Shown here piece after piece: positions 3,064 to 27,301 of a DNA stretch of 27,301 nt (the first letter of the stretch is position 1; each line of letters begins with the position of its first letter). The stretch is from a virus. The notes under the pieces are model-generated. The model was not told the DNA's origin. It did not search any database and was given only the letters and a program-made list of their open reading frames with translations. The position numbers were made by a program, and so were the translations under genes. The stretch is from positions 1-27,301 of IMG/VR virus record IMGVR_UViG_3300009285_011387; one strand, 5' to 3'.

Positions 3064-3990
3064 ATGAGCGAAAAGAAAATTACCTTTCTTACATACGCAG
3101 AATCACAAGTTGGCTTAGGGCATTGGTTTCGCACTCAGGCACTTGAGGATGAAGCTAAAAGTCGCGGTCACGCGACTCATTTTTTGACTAACCGAATGTT
3201 ATTTCGGCAAATGTACTTTCAAATTCGAAATGAAAACGTAGATGATTTTTACAATTGCTTACATCAAATCAAACCTCATGTGCTAATAGTTGATGTGCAA
3301 GGGCATATACCGGACTATATGCATGAGATAGCTCGTAAATTTAATGTCAAAATTGTTATTCTGAATGGCGTTGGTAGAGTGGATGAAAATCACGCCGATC
3401 TTGTAATCGTTCAAGGATTCAATAATGGCAACCAGAACAAAAACACAGTTAGCGGTCCTGAATATGTTATCTTGCGATCCAAATTGAATCAAGTTCCGGC
3501 AATGCATAGCGGAAATGCTTGGTTCGTTTGGGGCGGCGCAAATGATAAAATGTCATTGCTCGAAGCGTTTAATCAATTCGATGATCGAGAAGCAATTTTG
3601 GCCGTTCACAAGGAATTTATTAATCCTTCAACATATAATAAAATTGTAAATACACAACCGAATTCATTGCATTTGATTTGTCAAGTTACCGGTGATGCGA
3701 TGCTGCCAATTATGGCAAATTCCAAACGCGCTTGCATTGCTATGGGAATGACCGCTTGGGAATTGGCATATTTTGGTACACCAACTTATGTTTTCTCTGC
3801 AACTCCAGGTCATTTGAAATTTGCTCAAGATATGGACGCGGCCGGTTTGCTCATGGCCTATCCGCAAGTAGGGTTGCCAGATATTGGAAAAATGAAAGAG
3901 TTTTTAGACCGTCCATTTGAAGTAAATCTATCAAATAAGCCTGATTTGCTTGGAGCGAAACGAGTGATGGATTTGATAGAAAGTCTATAA
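3064..3990 (+). CDS. SpsG/PseG-like nucleotide-sugar hydrolase or glycosyltransferase
   Basis: This 308-aa protein begins with a short beta strand and the G-L-G-H-W-F-R motif (17-23), which matches the GxGHxxR signature of PseG and SpsG (GT-B fold). PseG removes UDP from a UDP-2,4-diacetamido sugar in pseudaminic acid synthesis; SpsG proteins are related spore-coat polysaccharide enzymes. The C-terminal A-C-I-A-M-G-M-T-A-W-E-L-A-Y-F-G-T-P resembles the GT28-type nucleotide-sugar binding region. An SpsF-like cytidylyltransferase lies at 9075, and SpsF and SpsG often occur together. The exact substrate is unknown. The ATG at 3064 is the first start after a 24-nt gap; the spacing to a ribosome site is weak. 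Confidence 0.75.
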   Translation: MSEKKITFLTYAESQVGLGHWFRTQALEDEAKSRGHATHFLTNRMLFRQMYFQIRNENVDDFYNCLHQIKPHVLIVDVQGHIPDYMHEIARKFNVKIVILNGVGRVDENHADLVIVQGFNNGNQNKNTVSGPEYVILRSKLNQVPAMHSGNAWFVWGGANDKMSLLEAFNQFDDREAILAVHKEFINPSTYNKIVNTQPNSLHLICQVTGDAMLPIMANSKRACIAMGMTAWELAYFGTPTYVFSATPGHLKFAQDMDAAGLLMAYPQVGLPDIGKMKEFLDRPFEVNLSNKPDLLGAKRVMDLIESL

Positions 3991-3996
3991 AAAAAA

Positions 3997-4078
3997 TGGC
4001 AAAAATGGCAAAAATTTTACTCGCTTGTCAAAAAAGTGGCAAAAATACCTATTTTTGTCAAATTTTTCTGCCATTTTT
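3997..4078. repeat. AT-rich nested inverted repeat with three TGGCAAAAA copies
   Basis: TGGCAAAAA occurs at 3997, 4006 and 4037. The arm 4001-4017 is complementary to 4060-4078 apart from a 2-nt bulge. Inside it, 4040-4057 forms a perfect CAAAAATA/TATTTTTG inverted repeat. The structure lies just after the SpsG-like gene. It could terminate transcription in both directions or bind a regulator. Confidence 0.6.
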
Positions 4079-4083
4079 ATCAT
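4055..4083 (+). promoter_or_regulatory. Candidate sigma70-type promoter for 4100-10698
   Basis: TTGTCA (4055-4060) is followed by a 17-nt spacer and TATCAT (4078-4083). The right arm of the inverted repeat occupies the spacer, so hairpin formation or protein binding there could control transcription. The first gene starts 17 nt past the -10 box, which leaves little room for a leader. Confidence 0.4.
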
Positions 4084-4099
4084 TTTCGCATAAAGTCAT

Positions 4100-4363
4100 A
4101 TGACAAAAACTAACAGAGATATTATTTTTTACTCATATGATTTTCCGGCAATATGTAGGGAAATGGAATTTCACTTAGAAGTAATGCATACATTTAAAAT
4201 TGGTAAAAACATATACGGAGCGGCCAATGCTACAATTACTAAACCAGAGAAGTTCGCAAATCAAACAGTTAGATTGTATTTTATTAATGGATTTGTGAAA
4301 TGGATCGAAAGAAATAATAGCGATCATCCAGTCAAATATTTCAGTCAAGACAGGAGAGTGTAA
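4100..4363 (+). CDS. Small hypothetical protein
   Basis: The 87-aa product has no family I recognise. It is rich in aromatic and basic residues and has no signal peptide or cysteine pair (one Cys only). It ends one base before the next ATG (4365), and the same reading direction and tight spacing support it being a real operon gene. A GGAGAG ribosome site for the next gene lies inside its 3' end. Confidence 0.6.
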   Translation: MTKTNRDIIFYSYDFPAICREMEFHLEVMHTFKIGKNIYGAANATITKPEKFANQTVRLYFINGFVKWIERNNSDHPVKYFSQDRRV

Positions 4364-4364
4364 A

Positions 4365-4715
4365 ATGTGGCGTGATACAACATCTTATTGGATTTGTGAG
4401 TATTGTGATCGAGTAATATCGATCCAAGATGGAAGTTGTCCGGGCTGCGGCGGGCCTCATCGGTCTACCAGCAAGACTAAAGACGACATGCCGAGAGACA
4501 TACCGAGAACAACTATTTTTGACATGAACAGACAGGATGTACAGCTTTTGCCCCTTAGCGGTTCAACAGCAAGTTTCATAAATCATTCAACAAGTAGTAG
4601 CTCTATGGTTAGCTCTATGGTAATGGGAAATTTCGGTTTTAATTTACCGGCTATAGACCGTCATCCAATAAACACCATCGATCCGTTTAATCCCGGAATA
4701 TACCCATACAAATAA
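4365..4715 (+). CDS. Small zinc-ribbon protein
   Basis: The first 33 residues hold C11-x2-C14 and C25-x2-C28-G-G-P-H-R, a typical four-Cys zinc ribbon. The remaining about 80 residues are Ser/Thr/Met-rich and low in predicted structure (S-T-S-S-S-S-M-V-S-S-M-V-M). The ribbon resembles the tail of the gene interrupted at 261. The preceding gene ends 1 nt upstream with GGAGAG in range of the ATG. Function is unknown; such phage proteins may bind nucleic acids or protein partners. Confidence 0.7.
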   Translation: MWRDTTSYWICEYCDRVISIQDGSCPGCGGPHRSTSKTKDDMPRDIPRTTIFDMNRQDVQLLPLSGSTASFINHSTSSSSMVSSMVMGNFGFNLPAIDRHPINTIDPFNPGIYPYK

Positions 4716-4765
4716 GAACAAGTTACTCGATTTTTATTGATCTTTTAGTTAGATAGGATAACATA

Positions 4766-5830
4766 ATGAAATTACTCAAAAGAATAGCTCTGTTATTTGT
4801 TTTGGTGTTAGTTGTCGTTTCGTGCGCACCACCAGCAGCACCACAAAAATTTTATTTGCCCATGATCCTTGAGCAAAATCAATCCGTTCTAGGTGTTCAA
4901 ATGGAGGGTAATAGCCTGGGCGGACGTAATGTTTACTTGGCTAATGAGAGCGCAATTCATTTATCTTTGCGCTGGAGCGAGGTTGAGGCCATCAGAGGTA
5001 CATATTCATGGATTACAACATTTGATACAATGGCCGCTACCGTGGCAGAAAACAGATTTTTTATTCTCAATCTAAAAAATGCACCGGCTTGGGCGCGTGC
5101 GCCATCTACTCTACAATGCTATGCACCAAAAGTTGAATTTTTTGATGAGTTTGCAAATTTTGTTGTAGCTGCTATCGACCGCTATCATCCAGATGCTATC
5201 GAGATATGGAATGAACCAGACGTTCAACCACAAGCTGCAATAGATAATGGCTATTGGTATGGTTGTATTGGTAACGGTACACTATATGCTCAAATTTTGG
5301 GAGTGGTGTATCCTATTGTAAAGGCACATCATCCATCCGTTGTAGTGCTGGGTGGCGCATTAATGCTTGGGGAAACCCAACACAAATTTACTGAGGACTT
5401 TCTAGCATATACAATTGCATCACCTATCACAAAATACAATCAATCATACCCTGTACCAGCCCCAAAACTATCTTTAACGTCATCCATACATCCATTCGAT
5501 GGTGTCAGTTATCACGCATATATCACGTACCCATCTACAAACTTCGATTACGTATTCGGCAAAGCCGATTATCTTGCTACGCTAACAGATAAACAACTTT
5601 GGGTGACAGAAACCGCTCTTCTGTGCCAAACGGACTGCGGTACGACATTTAAAAATTCACAGACCAATTATCTAACTCATGTTTACAGCAACGCCTATAG
5701 CCATGGTCTAAATGGCTTATTATGGTACAGCTTAGCAAATAACGGATGGTTAAATTCAGATTTGGTCGCCAAAGATGTGAAAAAGCCAGTATGGTATGAA
5801 TACTGTGATTTTTTGGGAGGTTGCGAATGA
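4766..5830 (+). CDS. Secreted lipoprotein with a clan GH-A glycoside hydrolase-like fold
   Basis: The 354-aa protein starts with K-R, a hydrophobic helix (about 7-18) and V-V-V-S-C20, a lipobox that would anchor it outside the cytoplasmic membrane. A short Pro/Ala linker and Y-L-P-M-I (30-34) follow. The catalytic domain shows I-E-I-W-N-E-P-D (acid/base E150) and L-W-V-T-E-T (nucleophile E282). These are the two glutamates of clan GH-A enzymes such as GH5 and GH39. H-A-Y and the N-terminal L-R-W-S-E-V also fit. It probably cleaves a glycan on the host surface or modifies the envelope of the infected cell or lysogen. The substrate cannot be told. AGGA precedes the ATG. YLPMI-like segments suggest a Chloroflexota origin. 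Confidence 0.8.
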   Translation: MKLLKRIALLFVLVLVVVSCAPPAAPQKFYLPMILEQNQSVLGVQMEGNSLGGRNVYLANESAIHLSLRWSEVEAIRGTYSWITTFDTMAATVAENRFFILNLKNAPAWARAPSTLQCYAPKVEFFDEFANFVVAAIDRYHPDAIEIWNEPDVQPQAAIDNGYWYGCIGNGTLYAQILGVVYPIVKAHHPSVVVLGGALMLGETQHKFTEDFLAYTIASPITKYNQSYPVPAPKLSLTSSIHPFDGVSYHAYITYPSTNFDYVFGKADYLATLTDKQLWVTETALLCQTDCGTTFKNSQTNYLTHVYSNAYSHGLNGLLWYSLANNGWLNSDLVAKDVKKPVWYEYCDFLGGCE

Positions 5831-6054
5831 TGACAAAAGTAAAAATTGTTGGGAATGGACTTCCGAAACAAACACAAATATACATCAACGACATTCAAGT
5901 TAATCCAGTAAGCTTGTCTATTCATATGGGTTACGGTCATGCCCCAGAAATTACAATGACATTTATTGGAGAAGTGTCATTCCCAGATGACTTGTCAGCA
6001 GAAATAAGTTTAGCCACAGTCCCATTGATGAAACGCCAAAAAATAGATGAGTAA
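5827..6054 (+). CDS. Small hypothetical protein
   Basis: The 75-aa product follows the lipoprotein gene with an ATGA overlap (5827-5830), which fixes the start and suggests translational coupling. It looks like a small beta-rich domain (V-K-I-V-G-N-G, then I-T-M-T-F-I-G). I recognise no family. It contains no Cys and no membrane segment. Confidence 0.65.
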   Translation: MMTKVKIVGNGLPKQTQIYINDIQVNPVSLSIHMGYGHAPEITMTFIGEVSFPDDLSAEISLATVPLMKRQKIDE

Positions 6055-6310
6055 AATTATTCTTGCTATCGTTTCATTTTTCCAAAAGGAAATTATAATC
6101 CGTTATTGGCCGGATCATCCACATTTAATTAAACTCGATGACTTTCTAATAACTACGAAAAAAACAATTGGATCAATAGTTATTGGGAAAAAATATCAAT
6201 GTATGTTATGTGGCAAATACCTCATGGAGTATGAGCGGAGCTATTGGAAAACATACGAAGATTATTCGCCGGTATGGATGAATAGTCAAAGGACAACAAA
6301 AAGAAAATGA
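6047..6310 (+). CDS. Small hypothetical protein with a CxxC pair
   Basis: The 87-aa product has a hydrophobic N-terminus (I-I-L-A-I-V-S-F-F) and a C-M-L-C-G-K-Y-L pair, possibly half a zinc site. The start overlaps the previous gene by 8 nt and its end overlaps the next start in ATGA (6307-6310). No family is recognised. Confidence 0.6.
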   Translation: MSKIILAIVSFFQKEIIIRYWPDHPHLIKLDDFLITTKKTIGSIVIGKKYQCMLCGKYLMEYERSYWKTYEDYSPVWMNSQRTTKRK

Positions 6311-6516
6311 GATACTTATACTTTTTTAGTTATGTTCATACTGCCGCAAATGGTACTTTTTGTTTTGGATTTAGCGAGGTTGAGTCTGGCGAACTCGTTG
6401 AAACTTATGAGCATATCTTTGATATCAAAGAACAAATCGAAAAACAATTAGAAATGGATAGTATCTCTATCATTAATTTTATTTTACTAAAAGATAAAGA
6501 AAAGGATCAAAAATGA
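6307..6516 (+). CDS. Small hypothetical phage protein
   Basis: The 69-aa product begins M-R-Y-L-Y-F-F-S-Y and continues with a G-F-S-E-V-E-S-G-E strand pair and a charged helix ending I-N-F-I-L-L-K. The layout recalls a widespread class of short phage proteins of unknown role, but I cannot name a family. It overlaps both neighbours by 4 nt (ATGA at 6307 and 6513). Confidence 0.6.
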   Translation: MRYLYFFSYVHTAANGTFCFGFSEVESGELVETYEHIFDIKEQIEKQLEMDSISIINFILLKDKEKDQK

Positions 6517-7181
6517 AAATCGGATTGAATCTCAAAGTTCCAGAAGCGGTCGAATTTTCGAAAAGTTTTCAATCAACAGATATCGTTTACACCCATAGCA
6601 ATGATTATGGTGTTTTGTCTGGTTTATCTAATGTCAGTCGAATGTTATCTCTTACGCCTGATATTCTTCCTGGCTATGTCGAAACTCTGTATAACGAAAA
6701 AATAAGCAATATTGCCTTTAATTTAGAGGGCAGCAGCTTAGATTTGCCCGAACTGGTTGCCAAACAAAAAAGAATGTACGATCAGGTTATCGAATTGATA
6801 GGCATGAAATTGGTCTTTGTCCCTTCTGGGCAATCTTTAGTCCGATGGCCTTCTAGTCTATCAAAATATTGTCATGCTTTGTGTTTTCAAACTCAAAAGT
6901 ATCAAATTGAATCGCCGGAACATTACATTGACATTATCAAAATGACAATTAACATGATACACATTAATCGTCCATCTTTGCCTGTCTGGGTACAAGTATC
7001 TGTCTCACCGCCCACAAAACACAACACGCCAATCCCGAAAATAATTTCAACCATTCAGTCAATATTTAGTAACAATGTGAATGCGGCTGGTATCTATCTT
7101 CACTATCTGCCCGAAGATTGGCAAAAGGCTGAGATTATTTTATCAAGCTTGCTTGTTTCTCGCGCGAGGCAAAATTCATGA
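6513..7181 (+). CDS. Unknown 222-aa protein, possibly TIM-barrel-like
   Basis: I do not recognise a family. The sequence alternates hydrophobic strands and helices. Segments such as I-A-F-N-L-E-G, L-V-F-V-P-S-G, L-P-V-W-V-Q-V-S-V and A-G-I-Y-L-H-Y-L-P-E-D-W would fit successive strands of a TIM barrel, which is only an impression. It is coupled by ATGA overlaps to both neighbours and lies directly before the ATP-grasp gene, so it probably serves the same pathway. There is no signal peptide. Confidence 0.65.
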   Translation: MKIGLNLKVPEAVEFSKSFQSTDIVYTHSNDYGVLSGLSNVSRMLSLTPDILPGYVETLYNEKISNIAFNLEGSSLDLPELVAKQKRMYDQVIELIGMKLVFVPSGQSLVRWPSSLSKYCHALCFQTQKYQIESPEHYIDIIKMTINMIHINRPSLPVWVQVSVSPPTKHNTPIPKIISTIQSIFSNNVNAAGIYLHYLPEDWQKAEIILSSLLVSRARQNS

Positions 7182-8398
7182 CATCTCAAAACAACTCAAA
7201 ATGGGTATGGATTATTGCTGGTGGAATTTTACAAATTCCAATGATAAAAGCCGCCAAAGAGCGCGGCTACAAAGTCATGGTGACTGACCGCGACTTGCTT
7301 GCGCCCGGCTGTCAAATTGTAGATAAGGCGCTAGGCGTGGATACATACGATATTCGCGGCCATATCGTTCTCGCTAAAAATCTTCCATTCAAACCGGCAG
7401 CTGTATTAACGGTTGGCGCAGACGTAGGTCCTACCGTTAGCGCAGTAGCAGAGGTATTTTCTTTACCGGCTGAAAAATCTATAATTGCCAAACGTGTTCG
7501 CAACAAAGCAACTATGCGCGATCTTGTAAATCAAGCACATCCAGTTTATTTAGAAATTGATTACGATCATGTAACCCCTAACTCGAACTGGAAAGCCCGT
7601 TGTAAATCCGCTGGAGTTGATCCATATCCATGTGTTCTCAAGCCAATTGAGGCCAGCGGATCAAAAGGTATCACTCTGATTGAAACACCTTGGCAATGGA
7701 CAAATGCCATGCTAAAAGCACGTCAGTTTACCGGCAATGGTAATCGAAGTTTGATTGTAGAAGAACGGTTGATTGGTAAAGAATACGCGCTGGATTTCTT
7801 CGTGTACAACAAAAGAGTATATTTTGCCAATGCCGCCGAAAGAATTTTTCGTACACGTGGGAAAAAGATAGGCATAGAGGCTGGTCACATCAATCCGTGG
7901 ACGCCGCCAGACGAGGTTATTTTATTGGCAGCAAGAGCTGTAAAGAAATTGGGTGTTACTTTTGGCCCATTCAAAATTGATTTCATCAATGATATTCGTT
8001 ATGGATGGTGTGTTATGGAATGCGCCACTCGTCTTTCTGGTGGTTTCGATCATATGCTTACGTCGCCATTGGCAACCGGAAAAGACATTACCGGATTTAT
8101 GCTAGACATGGCTTTAGGTTTACATCTCGACTCGGAAAAACTAAAAGCCACAAAAAATTCTTTCGTATGTGCTATCGCCCCATTAGATTTATTGCCCGGC
8201 GAAGTGGAATCATGGAATTTGCCAAAAAATATGCCCGGTCAAGAAGATATTATTGTCTTGGCAAAAGACAAAATTCTACCACTCGAAAACAATACAATGC
8301 GCCCAGTTTTTGCATTTGCTAATGGGAAAACACGATTATCTGCAATAAAAAATGCATTTCGCCTTGCCAAAGAAATTAAACCGGAGTATAAGAAATGA
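7178..8398 (+). CDS. ATP-grasp ligase (carbamoyl-phosphate-synthase-like fold)
   Basis: The 406-aa protein opens with a Rossmann-like pre-ATP-grasp domain (W-I-I-A-G-G-I-L-Q-I-P, then V-T-D-R-D). The ATP-grasp core follows, with P-C-V-L-K-P-I-E-A-S-G-S-K-G (151-164; Lys155 and the Gly/Ser-rich loop for phosphates), L-I-V-E-E-R-L-I-G-K-E-Y and M-E-C-A-T-R-L-S-G-G (280-289; E281 at the usual Mg-binding E-x-N-x-R position, with Ala-Thr instead of Asn-Pro). Enzymes of this type join a carboxylate to an amine through an acyl phosphate. In sugar clusters they can amidate or aminoacylate a sugar acid. Overlaps of 4 nt on both sides place it in one operon with the SDR and SpsF-like genes. Confidence 0.85.
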   Translation: MTSQNNSKWVWIIAGGILQIPMIKAAKERGYKVMVTDRDLLAPGCQIVDKALGVDTYDIRGHIVLAKNLPFKPAAVLTVGADVGPTVSAVAEVFSLPAEKSIIAKRVRNKATMRDLVNQAHPVYLEIDYDHVTPNSNWKARCKSAGVDPYPCVLKPIEASGSKGITLIETPWQWTNAMLKARQFTGNGNRSLIVEERLIGKEYALDFFVYNKRVYFANAAERIFRTRGKKIGIEAGHINPWTPPDEVILLAARAVKKLGVTFGPFKIDFINDIRYGWCVMECATRLSGGFDHMLTSPLATGKDITGFMLDMALGLHLDSEKLKATKNSFVCAIAPLDLLPGEVESWNLPKNMPGQEDIIVLAKDKILPLENNTMRPVFAFANGKTRLSAIKNAFRLAKEIKPEYKK

Positions 8399-9063
8399 CA
8401 CAAAAAATGTTCATTAGTGGATTAACTGGAAATGTCGGTACAGCTTGCAGAATGCAATGTGTCAGAAAATTATGGGAAGCATCTGGTGTTTCGCGCAAAA
8501 CCAATCTAAATTTAGTAGATTGGGAATCAACATCGGAATGGATCAGGCAACAACAACCTTTTGATATTGTCGTAATGGCGCATGGTGTTCAAAAGCCAGC
8601 TCTTTTGCGCGAAATAACACAAAAAGACTGGCGCGATGTCATTATGAATAACTTGGATGCGTCCGCGTCTCTTACAACCGCTCTAATGAGACACAACAAA
8701 ATTAATCCAAATGGATTAGTAGTTTATTTTTCTAGCATTCAAGCCACTCAGCCACGTGAAGGACGTAGCGCATATGCTACAGCAAAAGCCGGTATTGAAG
8801 GATTGTGTCGCGCGGCGTCGGTTGAATGGGAAGAAAGCAAAGTAAGAACTGTCTGCTTACGAATAGGACAAATGGCACAACCAATGCAAGGAATTTCTTT
8901 TTCATCAGATTACATCAAAAAGCTCAACCATGCAATCCCTGGCCCGTGGGTACACGCGAACGACATCGCAAAATTAATTTTTGCTCTATACGATCAGCCA
9001 TCCATGAGCGGCGAAACAATTGAAATATCATCAGGTCATCGCTTCAATATTTGGCCTAAATAA
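8395..9063 (+). CDS. Short-chain dehydrogenase/reductase
   Basis: The 222-aa SDR has the cofactor loop T-G-N-V-G-T-A (11-17), S113/S114 and the Y127-A-T-A-K131 catalytic pair. V-V-M-A-H-G-V (59-65) stands where N-N-A-G usually lies. The short length and lack of a C-terminal extension fit the classical SDR class that reduces or oxidises sugars or cofactors. It overlaps the ATP-grasp gene by ATGA. In legionaminic acid clusters an SDR (PtmA type) sits with a CMP-sugar synthase, which is a similar pairing, but substrate identity here is a guess. Confidence 0.88.
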   Translation: MTQKMFISGLTGNVGTACRMQCVRKLWEASGVSRKTNLNLVDWESTSEWIRQQQPFDIVVMAHGVQKPALLREITQKDWRDVIMNNLDASASLTTALMRHNKINPNGLVVYFSSIQATQPREGRSAYATAKAGIEGLCRAASVEWEESKVRTVCLRIGQMAQPMQGISFSSDYIKKLNHAIPGPWVHANDIAKLIFALYDQPSMSGETIEISSGHRFNIWPK

Positions 9064-9074
9064 GAAGAAAAATC

Positions 9075-10079
9075 ATGCTATCCGAACCTAATCTCATTAC
9101 TGTGCTTACCGTTCGTCTCAACTCGTCCCGGTTGCCCCAGAAGGGTATAAAAGAGGTTTCCGGTAAACCAATTATGACATGGATTGCCAAAAGGCTACAA
9201 AGCCTTCCTGGAATGCTAGTAATCGCTACTACCATTGAACCGAGTGATGATCCGATTATTGAAATAGGTAAAGAATTAAATATTCCAATTTGGCGCGGCC
9301 CAATCAATGATGTGGTAAAGCGCATGGATCAAGCAATTTCCGCTTTTATGCCCGACGCTCAATATGTTTTTAGAGCGCTAGGCGACTGCCCGTTTATCGA
9401 GACAGATTTTGTTGCTCGCGCCATTGATGTCATGGCAAGAACAAAAAGCGAAGCATTTCTATGGCATCTTGCCCCTGAAACATGGCCGGTATACGGCGCG
9501 CGTGAATTTCCATATTCCAGAAGTGCATGGAATAAAATCAATAATTTGGCGAAAGGAGATGAGCGCGAACACATAGATTTATACTTTCATCGCAATCGTT
9601 CACTATTCAAAATAGTATATCATCAACCGCCTCCGTTTACTTATTTCCGTCCATACCGACTCGAAATTGATTGGTTCGAGGACTATGATTTAATCAAGGC
9701 CATTGCCGAAGGCGTTGGCATGGATGCTCAGCTGAGTGACATAATTGATTTCCTCGATAAAAACGATGAAATTTCCCGTATAAATCGAGAGAGAGTCGAA
9801 AAAACTGGCCCGATGTCAAGTTATGCATATTCCCAAAGACGTGCATGGATGAAAGCCATGAATGGGAAACCTGTAACTAGCTGGACTGACACAATTTGGA
9901 AACCTCCAGGCGAAGATGCAACTCCGGTATTTTGCTCATCTGGTAAATGTATGGTCGGTTACGGCGATAGCGGCGTATTATATACCAAAGCCGGTGATAG
10001 AATATCTGGAAATGCATTTATAAATTGCACTTGCGGAGCTGGGAAATATTGGAAACAACCGAGAGCACGAAAAATATAA
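9075..10079 (+). CDS. SpsF-like cytidylyltransferase with a Cys-rich C-terminal extension
   Basis: Residues 7-33 (L-I-T-V-L-T-V-R-L-N-S-S-R-L-P-Q-K-G) match the CTP-binding start of the CMP-KDO/CMP-NeuAc synthetase and SpsF family. R-A-L-G-D-C-P-F (100-107) and L-E-I-D-W-F-E-D-Y-D are the later family motifs with metal-binding Asp residues. The domain would activate a sugar acid as a CMP-sugar or transfer a nucleotide. After about residue 240 there is an unusual tail with C-S-S-G-K-C and C-T-C-G (about 286-322), which may bind zinc. Together with the SpsG-like, SDR and ATP-grasp genes it suggests one glycan pathway. The gap from the SDR stop is 11 nt, with AGAAGAAA before the ATG. Confidence 0.85.
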   Translation: MLSEPNLITVLTVRLNSSRLPQKGIKEVSGKPIMTWIAKRLQSLPGMLVIATTIEPSDDPIIEIGKELNIPIWRGPINDVVKRMDQAISAFMPDAQYVFRALGDCPFIETDFVARAIDVMARTKSEAFLWHLAPETWPVYGAREFPYSRSAWNKINNLAKGDEREHIDLYFHRNRSLFKIVYHQPPPFTYFRPYRLEIDWFEDYDLIKAIAEGVGMDAQLSDIIDFLDKNDEISRINRERVEKTGPMSSYAYSQRRAWMKAMNGKPVTSWTDTIWKPPGEDATPVFCSSGKCMVGYGDSGVLYTKAGDRISGNAFINCTCGAGKYWKQPRARKI

Positions 10080-12799: not shown

Positions 12800-12842
12800 T
12801 TCACCCAAGAGGTGAATAAAATTTGATTAACATTGACAAAAT

Positions 12843-12877
12843 AAAAATACCCGCCTTCGATCAAAGGGGGTATTTTT
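12843..12877. terminator. Bidirectional intrinsic terminator between portal and mazG
   Basis: AAAAATACCC (12843-12852) pairs with GGGTATTTTT (12868-12877), with an inner CCTT/AAGG stem and a 6-nt loop. T-rich sequence follows on both strands. It would end the portal transcript from the left and the early - strand operon from the right. A smaller TTCACC/GGTGAA hairpin (12800-12816) lies directly after the portal stop. Confidence 0.85.
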
Positions 12878-12934
12878 ATTTCCATGACTGTCAATCAACT
12901 ATGCTTTTATTATACCACAGATTGTTCTTTATTC

Positions 12935-12967
12935 ATTTCAATCCACGCTCTCCACATGGGGAGCGAC
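12935..12967 (-). CRISPR. Solitary type I-C-like CRISPR repeat (candidate RNA anti-CRISPR)
   Basis: On the - strand this 33-nt stretch starts GTCGCTCCCC and ends GAGCGTGGATTGAAAT. These are the conserved 5' GTCGC and 3' GCGTGGATTGAAAT of type I-C repeats, such as the Bacillus halodurans repeat. CGCTC and GAGCG form the expected stem. There is no second repeat and no cas gene in the window. The repeat begins on the base right after the mazG stop codon, and the operon terminator lies 57 nt beyond its 3' end. It would thus be carried in the 3' part of the early mRNA. Phage-borne solitary repeat units are known to act as RNA anti-CRISPRs (Racr) by occupying Cas proteins. The repeat identity is seen in the sequence; the role is an inference. 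Confidence 0.82.
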
Positions 12968-13312
12968 CTATGTATCGCTACGCTTTTTGCTATCTTCAAA
13001 CGAAAATCCGCTTGGATACCTAATTTTCAATTTGGCAATATTGGTTTCCATGACCTGAGACATATCAAGTCCCATTACTGTACACAGAGCCGCGATATAC
13101 CAAAGGATATCGCCAATCTCTTTTTCGAGTTTATGTAGGTCTATATCATGCGAATGGAAAATGCCTTTTTTGACCATTTCCAATATTTCTCCTGCCTCGC
13201 CGGATATTCCTACCGCGTTCCATACGATCATAAGCTCATTGCCATCGAGAGAGAAACCAGGATTGACAGTTAAGGTTCTTGCTGCAAGAGATTGATATTC
13301 ACTAGCGTTCAT
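12968..13312 (-). CDS. MazG-like nucleotide pyrophosphohydrolase
   Basis: The 114-aa protein has the single-domain MazG/NTP-PPase pattern: G-I-S-G-E39-A-G-E42 and, one helix later, E65-I-G-D68-I-L-W-Y, the four acidic Mg2+ ligands. The helix L-D-M-S-Q-V-M-E-T-N-I-A-K-L-K-x-R-Y-P is the typical end of the domain. It would hydrolyse nucleoside triphosphates to monophosphates, either cleaning the nucleotide pool or lowering alarmone or dUTP levels during infection. The start overlaps the upstream gene by 11 nt. It is the last gene of the operon and is followed at once by the CRISPR-like repeat and the terminator. Confidence 0.88.
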   Translation of the reverse strand: MNASEYQSLAARTLTVNPGFSLDGNELMIVWNAVGISGEAGEILEMVKKGIFHSHDIDLHKLEKEIGDILWYIAALCTVMGLDMSQVMETNIAKLKIRYPSGFSFEDSKKRSDT

Positions 13313-13511
13313 TTTTGTCCCTTTTTTTTATTTGTTTTATGTCAAAAACAAAACATTTTATTCCATTGTCCAGTACAACTACGTAAGCTGGGCCAATATT
13401 GGTTGATTGTATTGTTATGAATTCTCCCCGACAGCCAGTCCATGGATGATTTCCGGTAAGAGATATCTCATCACCGGCAGAAAAAATATTGGATTTGATT
13501 TGATTTGTCAT
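13302..13511 (-). CDS. Small hypothetical protein (beta-rich, KOW/SH3-like impression)
   Basis: The 69-aa product has the order G-D-E-I-S-L-T-G, C-R-G-E-F-I-T-I and Y-V-V-V-L-D-N-G, which suggests a small beta barrel such as an SH3 or KOW fold. The C-terminal tail is strongly basic. It is coupled by ATGA overlap to the gene upstream and overlaps mazG. No certain family. Confidence 0.6.
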   Translation of the reverse strand: MTNQIKSNIFSAGDEISLTGNHPWTGCRGEFITIQSTNIGPAYVVVLDNGIKCFVFDIKQIKKRDKNER

Positions 13512-13789
13512 ATGCTAATATAATCCTTTGGATTGCCATGCTTAGGACAAAAGAAAACACCATGATCTAATCTTACTTCACCGTCGCAAGGATCATTTGG
13601 ATAAAGAATCGAGTGCCAACATATATATTTTGCTGGAATAACTTTTTCTGCTATCACGCGCAAGTTATCGGTTCGTATTTGCCATTCCCTAAAACAAATT
13701 GGACATTTTGGAATTTCAGGCGGCCAATCTACATACATGTCCGCCACAATATAGCCATGTCCTTTTGAGCAAGTGCCTAGTAATGCCAT
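13508..13789 (-). CDS. Small zinc-binding hypothetical protein
   Basis: The 93-aa product has two Cys/His groups: C-S-K-G-H near the start with C-P-I-C at 29-32, and C-W-H, C-D-G-E and C-P-K-H in the second half. Two zinc sites are plausible. The start lies 1 nt after the stop of the upstream frame, and its own stop is ATGA-overlapped with the next gene. Function unknown. Confidence 0.65.
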   Translation of the reverse strand: MALLGTCSKGHGYIVADMYVDWPPEIPKCPICFREWQIRTDNLRVIAEKVIPAKYICWHSILYPNDPCDGEVRLDHGVFFCPKHGNPKDYISI

Positions 13790-13790
13790 T

Positions 13791-13952
13791 TTATTTTATA
13801 TCCACTATGGTAGCATCTATTTTGCCAGAAAATTCTGTTTCAATTTCACCAATGGCCTGTTTAATCTCATCCGACATAAGATTGTCAATCAATGTTTTTT
13901 TCTCGCTAAGTAATAGACTTCTATGGTCTTGCAAATCACTCAGAAAATTCAA
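13791..13952 (-). CDS. Small helical protein, start uncertain or frameshifted
   Basis: The frame 13791-13976 is open and encodes an amphipathic, probably coiled-coil sequence (L-L-N-F-L-S-D-L-Q-D-H-R-S-L-L-L-S-E-K-K and onward to I-V-D-I-K). It has no ATG at its 5' end. TTG 13952 is the first usual start. One extra base near the ATG at 13975 would give M-E-E-Q-A-I-N-L-L-N in frame, so a single-base deletion or sequencing error is possible. The stop lies 1 nt before the next ATG, which supports real translation. Coding is likely; the start is not settled. Confidence 0.5.
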   Translation of the reverse strand: MNFLSDLQDHRSLLLSEKKTLIDNLMSDEIKQAIGEIETEFSGKIDATIVDIK

Positions 13953-13971
13953 TAAATTAATGGCTTGTTCT

Positions 13972-14211
13972 TCATTCTAATGCCTCCAAACTATTTATTA
14001 ATGGCAATGCCTGACCCATTGTATTCAAAAAAGTAATTGTTTCATCCATTGGAATAGAGACTATTATTCCATCGGTGTCTGGATCATTGAGAAAAAAAAT
14101 TTCTTCCACGCGATTGATTATAAATTTTCCATCACTATCGCGTGCTGCATTTAAATGTCTCATACAATTGATGAATTTGTTTCCGGCAATGAGATATGCT
14201 TTATTTGTCAT
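13972..14211 (-). CDS. Small hypothetical protein
   Basis: The 79-aa product shows M-T-N-K-A-Y-L-I-A-G-N-K-F-I-N and a strand-rich middle ending in a helix (I-T-F-L-N-T-M-G-Q-A-L-P-L-I-N). The layout resembles small regulatory or phage accessory proteins, but no family is clear. Its start overlaps the upstream stop as ATGA. No Cys pair and no membrane segment. Confidence 0.6.
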   Translation of the reverse strand: MTNKAYLIAGNKFINCMRHLNAARDSDGKFIINRVEEIFFLNDPDTDGIIVSIPMDETITFLNTMGQALPLINSLEALE

Positions 14212-14375
14212 ACCGGAACTTTTTCTGGCACTTTGAATGGTCCTGGTGCTTCAATTGGCTGATCCACATCAATTCGTTCTGGAACTTCGGTAGGGAATTC
14301 GACCGGTTCAAATTCGATTTCTGGATCACAAAAGTCACGATCTGGGAAGGATGGTAAAGTAATAGTTTTAGTCAT
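14208..14375 (-). CDS. Small acidic Pro/Glu-rich protein
   Basis: This 55-aa gene reads M-T-K-T-I-T-L-P-S-F-P-D-R-D-F and then repeats P-V-E-F-P-T-E-V-P-E, ending V-P-E-K-V-P-V. It is rich in Pro, Glu and Val and probably has little fixed structure. AAGGA lies 9 nt upstream of ATG 14375, and the stop overlaps the next start as ATGA, both strong signs of a real gene. Function unknown; a flexible linker or inhibitor-like peptide is possible. Confidence 0.65.
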   Translation of the reverse strand: MTKTITLPSFPDRDFCDPEIEFEPVEFPTEVPERIDVDQPIEAPGPFKVPEKVPV

Positions 14376-14392
14376 TATTTAATGTCCTTATT

Positions 14393-14836
14393 TCAAAGAT
14401 TACTCTTTCTTATAACAACCATCTCTATAGCAACAGGAACACTACTTATTCTTGCGCGATACTTATCGAGGGTTGCTTTTGCAATTTTATCATAAGGGGG
14501 GCCTCCGTATTTTGGCAAGACAATACTATAAAGAAAAACACCCCATGATCTAACAAGATCGTCTTCAATAATTGCTTTACCTAAAACCTGTACGGTCGCA
14601 AGCACAGGGACGATAGAATCAGAATCTTTTCCAGGAAATACATAGAAATGCTTTGCATAAACCAATGACAAAGTTGATGTCATGCCGCATGTGCAATCCT
14701 CAATTGGAGAAAAATAGGAATGCTTTTTGCAAGGGGCAGTAACAATTCGGTTAGGCCATTCTAGCTCAGACGAATAATAAGAAAGCAAGGTTTCGTTGAC
14801 ACAATCAAAATAAAATGGCTTAAATGCTAATAACAT
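14393..14836 (-). CDS. Hypothetical protein with a Cys/His cluster
   Basis: The 147-aa product has A-P-C-K-K-H-S-Y-F-S-P-I-E-D-C-T-C-G in the first third, a possible metal site followed by a mixed alpha/beta region. The arrangement (W..., A-P-C-x2-H, C-x-C-G) recalls hypothetical proteins from actinobacterial and other mobile elements, but I cannot name a family. A GAGGTG ribosome site lies at good spacing inside the end of the preceding gene. Confidence 0.6.
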   Translation of the reverse strand: MLLAFKPFYFDCVNETLLSYYSSELEWPNRIVTAPCKKHSYFSPIEDCTCGMTSTLSLVYAKHFYVFPGKDSDSIVPVLATVQVLGKAIIEDDLVRSWGVFLYSIVLPKYGGPPYDKIAKATLDKYRARISSVPVAIEMVVIRKSNL

Positions 14837-15328
14837 TTATTCACCTCTTTCTGAGTAAACAATATCTTTTTGCATCCACGCCGTTCCAGCATTTTCGCGG
14901 CTTTCTCGCCCTTCCCATTCGTTCTTCTCTGATTGCCAATGTAATGTTTCCGCAAGGCCAGCTGCGGCCAGAATATAGATCAAGGCCATTCCCAAATTGG
15001 GAATAATAGAATAAGTAGCGTAAAGTATCATCGCACTCCATGTTCCGGTGCAAGTTGGGCAACAAAGCATATCGCCAATTGCGTAACGCAATCCCGTACC
15101 GGTTGCCTCAACCGAATCGCCAGCGCCGGACGAATCTTTTACAACTTTCGTGAATGGTTTTCGTAGCCAGTCAAATACAAAATTGAAAGCGATTGCTCGT
15201 CCGCATCGAAAAGATGCAAACGCAAGAGCAATCAGAGTAAAATAATTCATTTCTGCAAATTTGTAGACGCTGATCGTTACAACGGCCATCAAAAACAAAG
15301 CGACAAAGACGATATGCCAGTTTTTCAT
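14837..15328 (-). CDS. DUF1360-like small membrane protein
   Basis: The 163-aa protein has hydrophobic segments at about 5-23, 28-42 and 98-128. The signature L-C-C-P-T-C-T-G-T-W (88-97) matches the L-x-C-P-x-C-x-G-x-W of DUF1360. The middle helix pair with F-R-C-G-R fits too. Function of the family is unknown; it occurs in Gram-positive bacteria and phages. ATG 15328 is preceded by AAGGAT; a longer frame to 15358 would begin within a few bases of the -10 box and is rejected. It is the first gene of the operon that ends with mazG and the CRISPR-like repeat. Confidence 0.75.
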   Translation of the reverse strand: MKNWHIVFVALFLMAVVTISVYKFAEMNYFTLIALAFASFRCGRAIAFNFVFDWLRKPFTKVVKDSSGAGDSVEATGTGLRYAIGDMLCCPTCTGTWSAMILYATYSIIPNLGMALIYILAAAGLAETLHWQSEKNEWEGRESRENAGTAWMQKDIVYSERGE

Positions 15329-15360
15329 TTTTTTATCCTTGTTTTTATCAGAATACAAGA

Positions 15361-15403: not shown

Positions 15404-17986
15404 TCAAAATAATTTTGGCATTTGGTCACGCCCGGTACGCTTGCGATCAATTTTCTCTTTACTGGATTGCTCATTGTATTGTTTGAGTAAAACTTTTGGA
15501 TCGGTAGTTTGATAAGTTTTGACTAAATTTTGCCAAAATTCCCATCGTCTTTGTCCGACTGGAATATATTTATCAGTCATTTCGATAGCTGTTATATCGT
15601 CCCAGCCAGCCAAAAATGCGCCGATGCTTTCTGAAAGCACACCAGAAAAAGGGTTTAAGAGTCGGCGTGGTGAGTAGCGATCAGGAGGCAAAAAAAGTGA
15701 GGCAATATAACGCGTAAGAGATATAGGCTTAAGAGTAGGATGTGGATTTTTTGCTGCTATGATATGTCCGCTATCCTCATCCCGATATTCTTTCTCTGAC
15801 AAATCATTTAGCCCAGCATCGCGCTCAGATGGTGCTACTTTGCTGAAATACATTACAGGATCAGCGCCTGCTAATTGCTCCTCGATTTCATAATTCCAAC
15901 CGGCTTGAAAAAAGAAACGAGATGCGCCGCCTTCATCGTCATAGCCTCTCGATCCTCGATTCGTTTGAAATGTTCCGCCCCAAGTATTGCCATTTGGCGC
16001 GGCACTTGGGTTTTCAATATATTGGCTTTTTGTATTGCCGGATTGATTATTTAGTAATTTTGCTGGACACTCATCAACGCATTCCCAAATATCAACAATG
16101 CTCTCTGCCATTTCTTCACTCTCAAACTCATGTCCCGCGCCATTTCCAAACGGTTTCATGCCATCGGTAAATCGATTGATTTGATATCCTGGCACAACTT
16201 CTTGCCCAATAATTTTACAGCCGGACGAATGAATTATAGCAAAATTCGCGGGCCAGCGACCTTTACTCCCATCGTAAAGCATCTCTTTGCGATCTACATT
16301 TTTCCAATTTAATGATGTTCCACTGGCAAGTCTGCCTTTGTCAAGAAAACTCTTTGCCTCTGATCCAATTCTACCAGCGTCAATGTTATATGCGCCCGCG
16401 CCGGTTTGGGTAATGTTATCAAGTGGTTTACCATAATACGGCTTCTGAAAACAAATTAAGGGTTCGGCTGCCATTTTTAGGCTTTGCAAGCCATATCGAT
16501 GACCGGCCCAAATTTCTTCCATTTCTGGATTGTCATCTTTTATGCGTGTTCCCTTCGGAAATCCCTGCGCGTACGCGTACAAGAATATGCTATCGTGGAT
16601 CAAGAGTCCAGCATTTTCCATCGCAACGGCCATCCGATGAAAGTTGCGCGCACTGGCAAAAGATATTCCCATTGCGCCTGGATAAAGATGTTCTGCTAAA
16701 GCCGCCCAGGTTTCAGGCTGAAACGCGACCTCGCCGCCATCCCATGAATTAGATGACCAAATAGAACGTCCGTTTTTGCGAACCATCAAGAGATGATTTA
16801 TGTCTAGTGTAATATCATATACATAACCACTATAAGGAACAAAAAACAATCTCTGTTTACCGCTTTTGTGATCTGTTTTCTCAAACCAGAAAGATTTATT
16901 GTCTTTCAAGAAAGTTAATACATATCGCGGTTGAACATGCGATATATTTGGATTATTGCATACAAATCTATCTTCACCTTCATGCTCTGCAAGAGTACAA
17001 CTATGACCAGTCAAAATTGCTAATCGCTGTACAGAATTAGACAGCTCTTTGCTTGATGTAAAAAACTGAACAAAGTCATATTTTTCGCTAACATGACCGT
17101 CTGTAGACAAAAGACCATCCAATAATTCTTGAAGAAGATCACATGAATAATCAAAAATATGATTTGGAATACATTTATTTTCTGCACCGATTCCAAATGA
17201 TCTTAGGTATTCCATCAAATTTTTGTTATAAATCATGGTTTGTTTATTATATTGAGTATATTTCACACCCAGTTTGTCAAGAACATTTTTTATGTTCTTT
17301 TTCTTGCGATCAATCTTCGCGGCAATAGTAATGAAATTCTGTTTCCAGGGTTGATTCTTCCGTTCAACTACTGATCCATCACCAATAAAGATTCCTAAGA
17401 AACGCATAAATTCATGGGCAGGAAATATATCTGGCCCAATCTGTATTGTGTCAAAGGAATTTCCTTCTTTCCAGTTTCCCTGGTTGGTCATCCGAAAAAC
17501 ATCTGGACATTGATCGGCTCGGATAAAATTCCATTTTGGCAGATTGTTTTGACTGCCAACAAAAAGCTTGTGATTTGGCGTAACCATCAAATCAATACTT
17601 CTGCCAGTAAAATGATACAAAATGCCATCATACTCAAACTTTTGATAATCAATAATATTAGCCATTTCTATTTCAAATGAGTTTGGATTTAAAGAATAAA
17701 TAGTACCATCATAGCGGTTTTCCACAATGTCTTTCATTGAAATCCAACCATCAACGGTTAATACTTCTGTTTCAGGCGTATAGCATTGTCCCATGAATCC
17801 CTTGGACGCCCTTTGAAACAAACCATCTGTACCAAACTTTGCTTTTGCGCTATCTTTACCACCAAATCTTTTGACAATACTGGTCAAGTGGTACGGCGCA
17901 TCACAAATCAGCGCGTGAAATTTAGGACCGTCATAACTCTTTGCCCAATCTTCAACTTTAGCATGAATATAATCCAGTTTTGCCAT
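15404..17986 (-). CDS. Beta-class DNA methyltransferase interrupted by an intein
   Basis: The 860-aa precursor starts with motif IV D-A-P-Y (29-32) and has motif I N-P-F-S-G (778-782) near the end, an order typical of beta-class amino-methyltransferases (N6-adenine or N4-cytosine). N-P-H-P-T-L-K-P and A-I-E-M-T-D-K-Y are the later motifs. The intein is residues 68-413; after splicing, G-F-M-G-Q joins S-W-D-G-G-E-V-A-F, giving a mature protein of 514 aa. A large region between the motifs would hold target recognition. There is no restriction enzyme nearby, so it probably protects phage DNA. The start is the ATG at 17986, about 130 nt after the thyA stop, behind two direct repeats. Confidence 0.88.
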   Translation of the reverse strand: MAKLDYIHAKVEDWAKSYDGPKFHALICDAPYHLTSIVKRFGGKDSAKAKFGTDGLFQRASKGFMGQCYTPETEVLTVDGWISMKDIVENRYDGTIYSLNPNSFEIEMANIIDYQKFEYDGILYHFTGRSIDLMVTPNHKLFVGSQNNLPKWNFIRADQCPDVFRMTNQGNWKEGNSFDTIQIGPDIFPAHEFMRFLGIFIGDGSVVERKNQPWKQNFITIAAKIDRKKKNIKNVLDKLGVKYTQYNKQTMIYNKNLMEYLRSFGIGAENKCIPNHIFDYSCDLLQELLDGLLSTDGHVSEKYDFVQFFTSSKELSNSVQRLAILTGHSCTLAEHEGEDRFVCNNPNISHVQPRYVLTFLKDNKSFWFEKTDHKSGKQRLFFVPYSGYVYDITLDINHLLMVRKNGRSIWSSNSWDGGEVAFQPETWAALAEHLYPGAMGISFASARNFHRMAVAMENAGLLIHDSIFLYAYAQGFPKGTRIKDDNPEMEEIWAGHRYGLQSLKMAAEPLICFQKPYYGKPLDNITQTGAGAYNIDAGRIGSEAKSFLDKGRLASGTSLNWKNVDRKEMLYDGSKGRWPANFAIIHSSGCKIIGQEVVPGYQINRFTDGMKPFGNGAGHEFESEEMAESIVDIWECVDECPAKLLNNQSGNTKSQYIENPSAAPNGNTWGGTFQTNRGSRGYDDEGGASRFFFQAGWNYEIEEQLAGADPVMYFSKVAPSERDAGLNDLSEKEYRDEDSGHIIAAKNPHPTLKPISLTRYIASLFLPPDRYSPRRLLNPFSGVLSESIGAFLAGWDDITAIEMTDKYIPVGQRRWEFWQNLVKTYQTTDPKVLLKQYNEQSSKEKIDRKRTGRDQMPKLF
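16748..17785 (-). other. Intein in the DNA methyltransferase, with LAGLIDADG endonuclease
   Basis: The 346-aa intein begins C-Y-T-P-E-T-E-V-L-T (block A) and has V-T-P-N-H-K-L (block B). Endonuclease motifs are F-L-G-I-F-I-G-D-G-S and L-L-D-G-L-L-S-T-D-G-H, which hold the two acidic residues of a LAGLIDADG homing enzyme. Block F is Y-V-Y-D-I-T-L-D-I-N-H. It ends R-S-I-W-S-S-N with Ser as the +1 residue. The penultimate residue is Ser rather than the usual His. The insertion lies beside a conserved G-F-M-G motif, as inteins tend to do. Both splice ends and the nuclease look intact. Confidence 0.92.
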
Positions 17987-18039
17987 AGGGACTTTTTGCC
18001 TTTTTAGATTTTTAGGCCAAATTTGCCAATTTTTTAATG

Positions 18040-18103
18040 CTCTTGCAAAATAATTTCAAAATTTCTTGGTATTCTCTTGCAAAATAATTTCGAAATTTCT
18101 TGA
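18040..18103. repeat. Two 30-bp direct repeats with internal palindromes
   Basis: Copies at 18040-18069 and 18074-18103 start CTCTTGCAAAATAATTTC and end AAATTTCTTG; they differ at one or two positions and are spaced 34 bp apart. Each has a centre like AATTTCGAAATT, a perfect palindrome in copy 2. They lie between thyA and the methyltransferase, upstream of the latter on its strand, and may be operator sites. Confidence 0.65.
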
Positions 18104-18112
18104 CATTTTTTT

Positions 18113-25817: not shown

Positions 25818-27301
25818 ATGGCTAAAAAATCAGCAGAAAACATTATTAAATTGATGCAAGAGCTACCAAATGATTCAATTGCTGAACTCATTACCAATTC
25901 TCCTGAATGGCGCGATGCGGTTCAGCCATTCATGCAAAAAGAAATTGAATTAGACAATGGTAAATATCCGGATGATCCACTCAAATTTATACAAAATATT
26001 TTAGAATATAATCTCTGGCAAAAACAAATTGACATCGCTAAATCCGTTCAAGAAAATAGAAATACAGTTGTTTCTTCGGGTCATTCGGTAGGAAAAAGCC
26101 TTCTCAGCGCGACTCTTGCAGCTTGGTGGTTAGCAACTCACGACCCAGCAGTAGTTATTACATTAGCACCATGCTATGACGATAAAACTGAGGTCTTGAC
26201 AGATCGCGGATGGATGTTTTTCGCAAATTTAGATGGTTCTGAAAAAATCGCCTGTTTATCAAAAGACGGTCAAATTAAATACGAGTATCCCGAAGATCGA
26301 TTTGTTTTTCCTTATTCTGGCGAATTGGTTGGTTACAAAAGTCAATTAATTGATTTTCTTGTTACGCCAAATCACCGATTACTGTTTGATACTTTTATAA
26401 CTCGCAACGAAAAACAAGGAACATTCAAGGGAAAGATTATCTCTGCCGAAAATGCTTATGGCAAAAACGGTCGTTTCAAAAAATACGCCAAGTGGACAGG
26501 TAAAGATACTAATATTTCACTTGATTGGGCAGAATTTTTGGGTTTTTGGTTTGCAGAGGGATGGGCAGAATACAATCCAGAAAAACGAAAATACCGTATT
26601 GTTTTAACTAATTCAGATCAAGAATATACAGAAAACTTACTAAAACGTGTTGAACTATCTTATAAATGTTACAGAAAAACCCAAAAACCACACATTATAG
26701 ATTACACTGTTTACAACAAACAGATGGCTTTCGAGTTTGTAAAATATGGAAAAACATTCACGAAACGAGTTCCAGAAAACATAAAAAATGCTACCCCGGA
26801 AATAATCAACGCCTTTCTTTATGGATTCTGGCAAGGTGATGGTTCTACAGACAAAAACAATAGCACTTGTTTGCTAACATCAAATTACGCTCTAGCAGGT
26901 GATTTACAAGAGTTGTGTTTGAAAATCGGAACTATCGCAAACGTAGAAACTAGAAAATTCTATCCAGGTTCATACGAAACAGACAAACCTCAATATGCTG
27001 TTAAGTATTGGAATAAACGCGGTAAATACCCACAAGCACATAGATATCAAAATCAACGCAATCATACAAACAAGTACCCCGGATGGTACAAAACCGAATA
27101 TTCCGGCTATGTCTATTCTGTAAAAGTATCTGATTACAACCCCGGCGATGGAGAAGGCGGAATTATTCTAGTCAGGCGTAACGGAAAATACATTTGGAGT
27201 GGGAATACCCACGTTCAAGTGAATAATATTTTGTGGCGCTATATGCGATCAATGGTAAGATCAAAAAATCTTCCAGGCGAAATTTTTGATACTCCTCGCT
27301 G
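25818..27301 (+). CDS. Terminase large subunit, intein-containing, cut by the window edge
   Basis: The frame is open from ATG 25818 to the end of the window (494 codons). Walker A is S-S-G-H-S-V-G-K-S (86-94), preceded by W-Q-K-Q-I (67-71), the adenine-binding Q region. The ATPase strand V-V-I-T-L-A-P (112-118) is interrupted by the intein (119-463) and resumes with T-H-V-Q-V-N-N-I-L-W-R-Y-M-R. Joined, A-P-T-H-V-Q-V is the normal terminase motif. The enzyme pumps DNA into the capsid through the portal and cuts concatemers. The Walker B and nuclease domains lie beyond the window. Confidence 0.92.
   Translation, partial: MAKKSAENIIKLMQELPNDSIAELITNSPEWRDAVQPFMQKEIELDNGKYPDDPLKFIQNILEYNLWQKQIDIAKSVQENRNTVVSSGHSVGKSLLSATLAAWWLATHDPAVVITLAPCYDDKTEVLTDRGWMFFANLDGSEKIACLSKDGQIKYEYPEDRFVFPYSGELVGYKSQLIDFLVTPNHRLLFDTFITRNEKQGTFKGKIISAENAYGKNGRFKKYAKWTGKDTNISLDWAEFLGFWFAEGWAEYNPEKRKYRIVLTNSDQEYTENLLKRVELSYKCYRKTQKPHIIDYTVYNKQMAFEFVKYGKTFTKRVPENIKNATPEIINAFLYGFWQGDGSTDKNNSTCLLTSNYALAGDLQELCLKIGTIANVETRKFYPGSYETDKPQYAVKYWNKRGKYPQAHRYQNQRNHTNKYPGWYKTEYSGYVYSVKVSDYNPGDGEGGIILVRRNGKYIWSGNTHVQVNNILWRYMRSMVRSKNLPGEIFDTPR
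26172..27206 (+). other. Intein in terminase large subunit, with LAGLIDADG endonuclease
   Basis: The 345-aa intein starts C-Y-D-D-K-T-E-V-L-T-D-R-G-W (block A), has L-V-T-P-N-H-R-L-L-F (block B), and nuclease motifs F-L-G-F-W-F-A-E-G and L-Y-G-F-W-Q-G-D-G-S. It ends R-R-N-G-K-Y-I-W-S-G-N with Thr at +1. The penultimate residue is Gly, not His, and block F lacks the usual N-H pair (V-Y-S-V-K-V-S-D-Y-N). Length and end sequences are close to the intein at 16748-17785. Confidence 0.93.

Follow-up and report, generated by a model that had tools for sequence, protein, structure and literature searches.

A solitary type I-C CRISPR repeat behind the mazG gene of an uncultivated phage, a candidate RNA anti-CRISPR

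Known RNA anti-CRISPRs and the type I-C repeat

In viruses, 2,103 solitary CRISPR repeat units (SRUs) have been catalogued, and among proviral SRUs whose host carries CRISPR-Cas, the subtype is the same in 83% (PMC10651486). Two RNA anti-CRISPRs (Racrs) from this work are the relevant precedents. RacrIC1, from a Bifidobacterium pseudocatenulatum prophage, has been shown to inhibit type I-C; it is located 11 nt downstream of an acrIC5 homologue with which it is co-transcribed (PMC10651486). RacrIF1, from a Thiocystis prophage, belongs to type I-F and is a small RNA made from its own promoter; it acts through the product upstream of the cut, which has no 5' handle (PMC10651486). Interference also drops in the presence of a non-targeting crRNA (PMC10651486), a finding compatible with a simple decoy. 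Repeat cleavage in type I-C systems is the task of Cas5d/Cas5c, and the resulting 5' handle is 11 nt long (PMC5965380); the Cas5c-Cas7 clamp on this handle nucleates Cascade assembly (PMC7684278).

The locus described here comes from an uncultivated phage represented by a viral metagenome record, of which 27,301 bases were analyzed (hereafter the window). Like RacrIC1, it consists of a solitary I-C repeat on a phage just behind a co-directional gene (at a distance of 11 nt in RacrIC1 and 0 nt here), with which it is expected to share a transcript. The differences are that the gene preceding RacrIC1 is an acrIC5 homologue and that inhibition has been demonstrated for it, whereas the gene preceding the present repeat is mazG and the locus is known from sequence alone. 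The likeness to RacrIF1 that we propose is a solitary repeat processed by the host crRNA endonuclease that sequesters Cas proteins, although RacrIF1 is of type I-F and has a promoter of its own. The first-pass annotation, which recognized the repeat and read it as a candidate Racr, expected type I-C members to be new when they come from outside well-studied hosts; this is not supported, given the published and tested RacrIC1, the catalogue cited above and some 20 further repeats in IMG/VR (see below). The phage repeat is most likely a further example of a known phage trick, RacrIC1 having been experimentally proven earlier, and contributes a clear case for type I-C, in a phage that has not been cultivated.

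The repeat and its counterparts in host arrays

The minus strand at positions 12967-12935 reads GTCGCTCCCCATGTGGAGAGCGTGGATTGAAAT, a single 33-nt type I-C CRISPR repeat that begins with GTCGC, continues with an imperfect stem and ends in the tail TGGATTGAAAT, which corresponds to the 11-nt crRNA 5' handle. The window contains no other copy within 3 mismatches, and the next best ungapped match to the repeat anywhere in it has 14 mismatches of 33. Neither a full nor a partial second repeat was detected in the flanking 100 bp, where alignments were no better than those of shuffled flanks; this comparison, of the kind used for SRUs, rules out a hidden or degenerate second repeat. Viral mini-arrays comprise two or more repeats with a spacer between them, whereas here there is a single repeat. 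A PADLOC scan of 10 window proteins, a subset of the open reading frames (ORFs), gave no cas genes. The first-pass claims of one full-length repeat, no second copy and no cas genes thus stand within these searches.

In the sense of SRUFinder, an SRU matches a known CRISPR repeat with identity and coverage of 90% or more each. Applying these thresholds without running SRUFinder itself, we found identity over the full length at 32/33 positions to one, and at 31/33 to most, of the array repeats of Cohnella rhizosphaerae. The repeat is intergenic, between the mazG stop (12968) and the portal stop (12799), and the window has the phage portal, terminase-like and mazG genes of a mobile element. A chance match is excluded: the number of 31-of-33 matches to one given repeat expected in the window is 5e-13, or 9e-9 when scaled up to all 17,823 known repeats that make up the SRUFinder library (PMC10651486), and a covariance model built from nine array repeats scores the phage repeat at 50.3 bits (E 2.6e-11, a rough E-value). 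The second match of this model is the same palindrome on the opposite strand. No Rfam family reaches its gathering score, CRISPR-DR9 scoring 14.7 bits vs a cut-off of 45, and no exact copies of the phage repeat were detected in the viral and bacterial collections searched. A spurious open frame (12823-13023, + strand) runs across the repeat and reads FNPRSPHGERP, resembling the peptides that arise where I-C repeats are read as genes; similar peptides occur in locus L041.

The comparison with repeat collections that the first-pass annotation had proposed did yield an array with closely similar repeats. A scan of a bacterial genome collection identified one genome, that of C. rhizosphaerae, with a repeat 1 mismatch away from the phage copy; most repeats of the array in question (L060) are 2 mismatches away. 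This array adjoins cas3c-cas5c-cas8c-cas4c-cas1c-cas2c (cas5c, E 9.4e-82; cas8c, E 2e-149), and because of this gene content the repeat class is assigned to type I-C. Among 398 sampled genomes of the phylum to which Cohnella belongs, two more have similar repeats. The likeness is confined to the repeat sequence: the Cohnella locus comprises tens of repeats, spacers and a cas operon, whereas in the window a single repeat stands by itself, with no cas gene found among the scanned proteins.

In the nine array repeats, the 8-bp stem is fully paired and shows compensatory changes. The phage stem consists of CGCTC/GAGCG plus CC/GG, that is, five lower and two inner pairs are retained, but pair 8-17 is a C-A mismatch, whereas this position is paired in 9/9 array repeats, with both C-G and U-A represented. 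The lower stem noted in the first-pass annotation is accordingly intact, while the stem as a whole is not. Because pair 8-17 is broken, the phage 33-mer is best described as a repeat-like element rather than an exact array repeat. The two mismatches to the common Cohnella repeat are located in the loop and the upper stem, leaving the lower stem and the handle unchanged. The folding energy of the phage repeat is -9.9 kcal/mol vs -16.8 for the Cohnella repeat, -14.7 for that of G175 and -10.5 for the solitary repeat of Bacillus pumilus plasmid p576.

Operon setting, relatives and other solitary repeats

The gene directly in front of the repeat encodes a MazG nucleotide pyrophosphohydrolase (12968-13312, - strand; PF03819, E 9.4e-12; phrog_229, E 2.3e-36); its frame ends at 12968 and the repeat starts at the next base, as originally described. 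Upstream of mazG, the presumed operon (13302-15358, - strand) comprises small ORFs at 13302-13511, 13508-13789, 13972-14211 and 14393-14836 and a gene for a DUF1360 protein at 14837-15358, and the frames from the promoter down to mazG are closely packed or overlapping. The presumed promoter is a sigma-70-like TTGACA-16-TATAAT element at 15388-15361 (- strand) that matches the consensus at 12/12 positions, which supports the promoter call made previously. This arrangement would give a single unbroken transcript from the promoter through mazG into the repeat. Behind the repeat, a stretch of 57 nt (12878-12934, - strand) leads to a strong, bidirectional intrinsic terminator hairpin at about 12838-12882, between the convergent mazG operon and portal gene; the spacing of 57 nt given earlier is correct within a few bases. 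The 57-nt stretch is AT-rich, contains an extended -10-like element, TGTGGTATAAT, and runs into the terminator, and the window contains no near match to its first 34 nt elsewhere. It may function as a pseudo-spacer, that is, the stretch coated by Cas7.

Among the operon proteins, no Pfam or NCBIfam match to an anti-CRISPR was detected; an acr gene next to a Racr is common but no requirement. The 79-aa product of the ORF at 13972-14211 (- strand) gave sub-threshold sequence matches (E 0.21-0.28) to 6scf and to 2x4i, which we take to belong to the same family as 6scf, namely AcrIII-1. The residue aligned to the catalytic His of AcrIII-1 (6scf; PMC7293037) is a Met in this ORF, and the single-sequence fold (pLDDT 47) is too poor to use.

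The same placement was looked for in related phages, but the repeat is absent from all portal and mazG relatives fetched (portal identity up to 67%, with locus L019 the closest); with the helicase as query, no relatives came up. No consistent host taxon emerged from TnpB, ThyA, MazG and portal, and nothing found supports the Chloroflexota host suggested in the first-pass annotation. A plasmid of Leptolinea (Chloroflexota) with an I-C-like array was considered and rejected, the repeat match of ~85% being no better than that of Firmicutes plasmids.

About 20 other solitary I-C-like repeats were found in IMG/VR viral contigs. Single I-C-like repeats occur in loci L037, L038, L040 and, within one phage group, L043-L045, and about twenty others measure 34-37 nt; the census pattern for the longer repeats skipped those of 32-33 nt, which another search covered in part. 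All three inner stem pairs are retained in 18 of 26 solitary sequences (the phage repeat is among the 26 and not among the 18), against ~5% expected for random letters; the weakly paired L073, L080, L087 and L091 are probably chance matches. In L070, L071, L081, L083 and L084, the repeat lies 8-16 nt behind a gene on the same strand, and the genes preceding the solitary repeats share no family. Together with the phage repeat, this collection suggests that I-C Racr candidates often ride on the 3' end of the mRNA of another gene. As a general mark of solitary repeats, the gene-repeat-terminator layout is not convincing: a terminator within 110 nt behind the repeat was detected in 3 of the 23 cases tested vs 0.85 expected. 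Plasmid p576 of B. pumilus (NZ_LR026976.1, L047) has the same succession of a gene, one I-C repeat, a short stretch and an intrinsic terminator, but its repeat is of 32 nt, has a different stem, lies 39 nt behind the gene and is on a plasmid. In L043, L044 and L045, the gap that separates a putative capsid gene from its neighbor holds the same solitary 32-nt I-C repeat, 4 nt ahead of the start of that neighbor.

Proposed function and alternatives

The window contains one repeat, on the strand of the operon, with the lower stem and the handle intact, a gene directly before it and a terminator soon after it. From the identity of the repeat, its solitariness and its placement, we consider it probable that the element is a type I-C Racr, carried at the 3' terminus of the mazG operon mRNA as a substrate of the host Cas5c; the Racr reading proposed previously thus holds as the best explanation. 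The operon would be transcribed from the 15388-15361 promoter through mazG into the repeat, with transcription stopping at the terminator. The host Cas5c would then bind the repeat hairpin and cut at its 3' base, after stem base G22, giving a product with the 5' end UGGAUUGAAAU. This downstream product would consist of the 11-nt 5' handle, about 57 nt and the terminator hairpin, and could nucleate Cas5c and a filament of Cas7 around a guide that has no useful target. The upstream product, a hairpin left on the mazG mRNA, could hold Cas5c, so that both products would withdraw Cas proteins from genuine crRNAs. The working product of RacrIF1 is the upstream one, which has no handle, and that of the I-C variant should be the other: as the crRNA nuclease of type I-C also binds the handle, it is the handle-bearing downstream product that should assemble, and inhibition may come from the 3' side of the cut, in contrast to RacrIF1. 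A more specific version is tentative and, in all its parts together, rather doubtful: the I-C Racr would form part of the 3' end of a metabolic-gene operon mRNA and have no promoter of its own; Cas5c would free from it a decoy with a 5' handle and a terminator cap, on which a spurious Cascade would assemble, and the C-A mismatch would tune either the binding of Cas5c or its release.

Several observations weaken the Racr reading, namely the C-A pair at 8-17, the lack of an exact copy in the collections searched, the lack of a recognized acr gene in the operon and the absence of the repeat from the related loci fetched. Three of these, the broken pair, the missing counterpart in related loci and the missing acr gene beside the repeat, also speak for an inert relic, left over from a decayed viral mini-array or from recombination with a host array and kept by chance. 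Yet neutral decay should spread changes evenly, whereas the handle and the lower stem are intact; moreover, there is neither a leader nor a partial second repeat, and the exact abutment to the gene end and the retention before the terminator suggest a selected placement, even if one sequence cannot prove it. A relic appears unlikely. That the repeat, once cut by Cas5c, provides a one-repeat guide in which the next ~34 nt are a real spacer turning the host Cascade against a competing phage or one of the host's own genes is improbable. In its favor are the intact 5' handle and the existence of viral mini-arrays with targeting spacers (PMC11656645), but known mini-arrays have two or more repeats; with no second repeat there is no 3' handle here, and the stretch behind the repeat is AT-rich, carries a promoter-like element and runs into a terminator. 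Nothing close to its first 34 nt occurs elsewhere in the window, and in phages the region as far as the terminator had short matches only.

Two further functions can be envisaged for a repeat in this position. Directly behind the mazG stop, it might be a 3'-UTR element at which Cas5c cleavage in an I-C host trims or regulates the mazG mRNA, or one through which the phage exerts Cas-dependent repression; transcriptional repression of this kind by repeat-like sequences has been noted (PMC10651486). We regard this as quite improbable, given that the terminator already provides the mazG mRNA with its 3' end and that no target complementarity supports repression. Very improbable, in our assessment, is a site of recombination or attachment by which the phage would integrate into a CRISPR array of its host, a route noted for other phages with repeat-like sequences (PMC10651486): no integrase or site-specific recombinase was matched among the window proteins scanned, although the window may be a partial genome, and the scan gave nothing nearer than a transposase of the TnpB type and, at the N-terminus of the portal protein, a weak excisionase-like match.

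Elsewhere in the window, a gene for a TnpB-type RNA-guided nuclease (341-1459, + strand; NF040570, E 1.7e-103) is located at the left end of the record. It is followed at 3064-10079 (+ strand) by a run of sugar-modification-like genes (PseG-like, ATP-grasp-like, SDR-like and SpsF-like), of which the PseG-like gene alone was matched to a model, the others being read from the sequence. Apparent intein or homing-endonuclease insertions are present in both the methyltransferase-like (15404-17986, - strand) and the terminase-like (25818-27299, + strand) proteins, the genes of which share a 27-nt stretch, 89% alike, on opposite strands. Finally, a tandem pair of AT-rich 34-nt units, 88% identical, lies at 18037-18104, just downstream of thyA.
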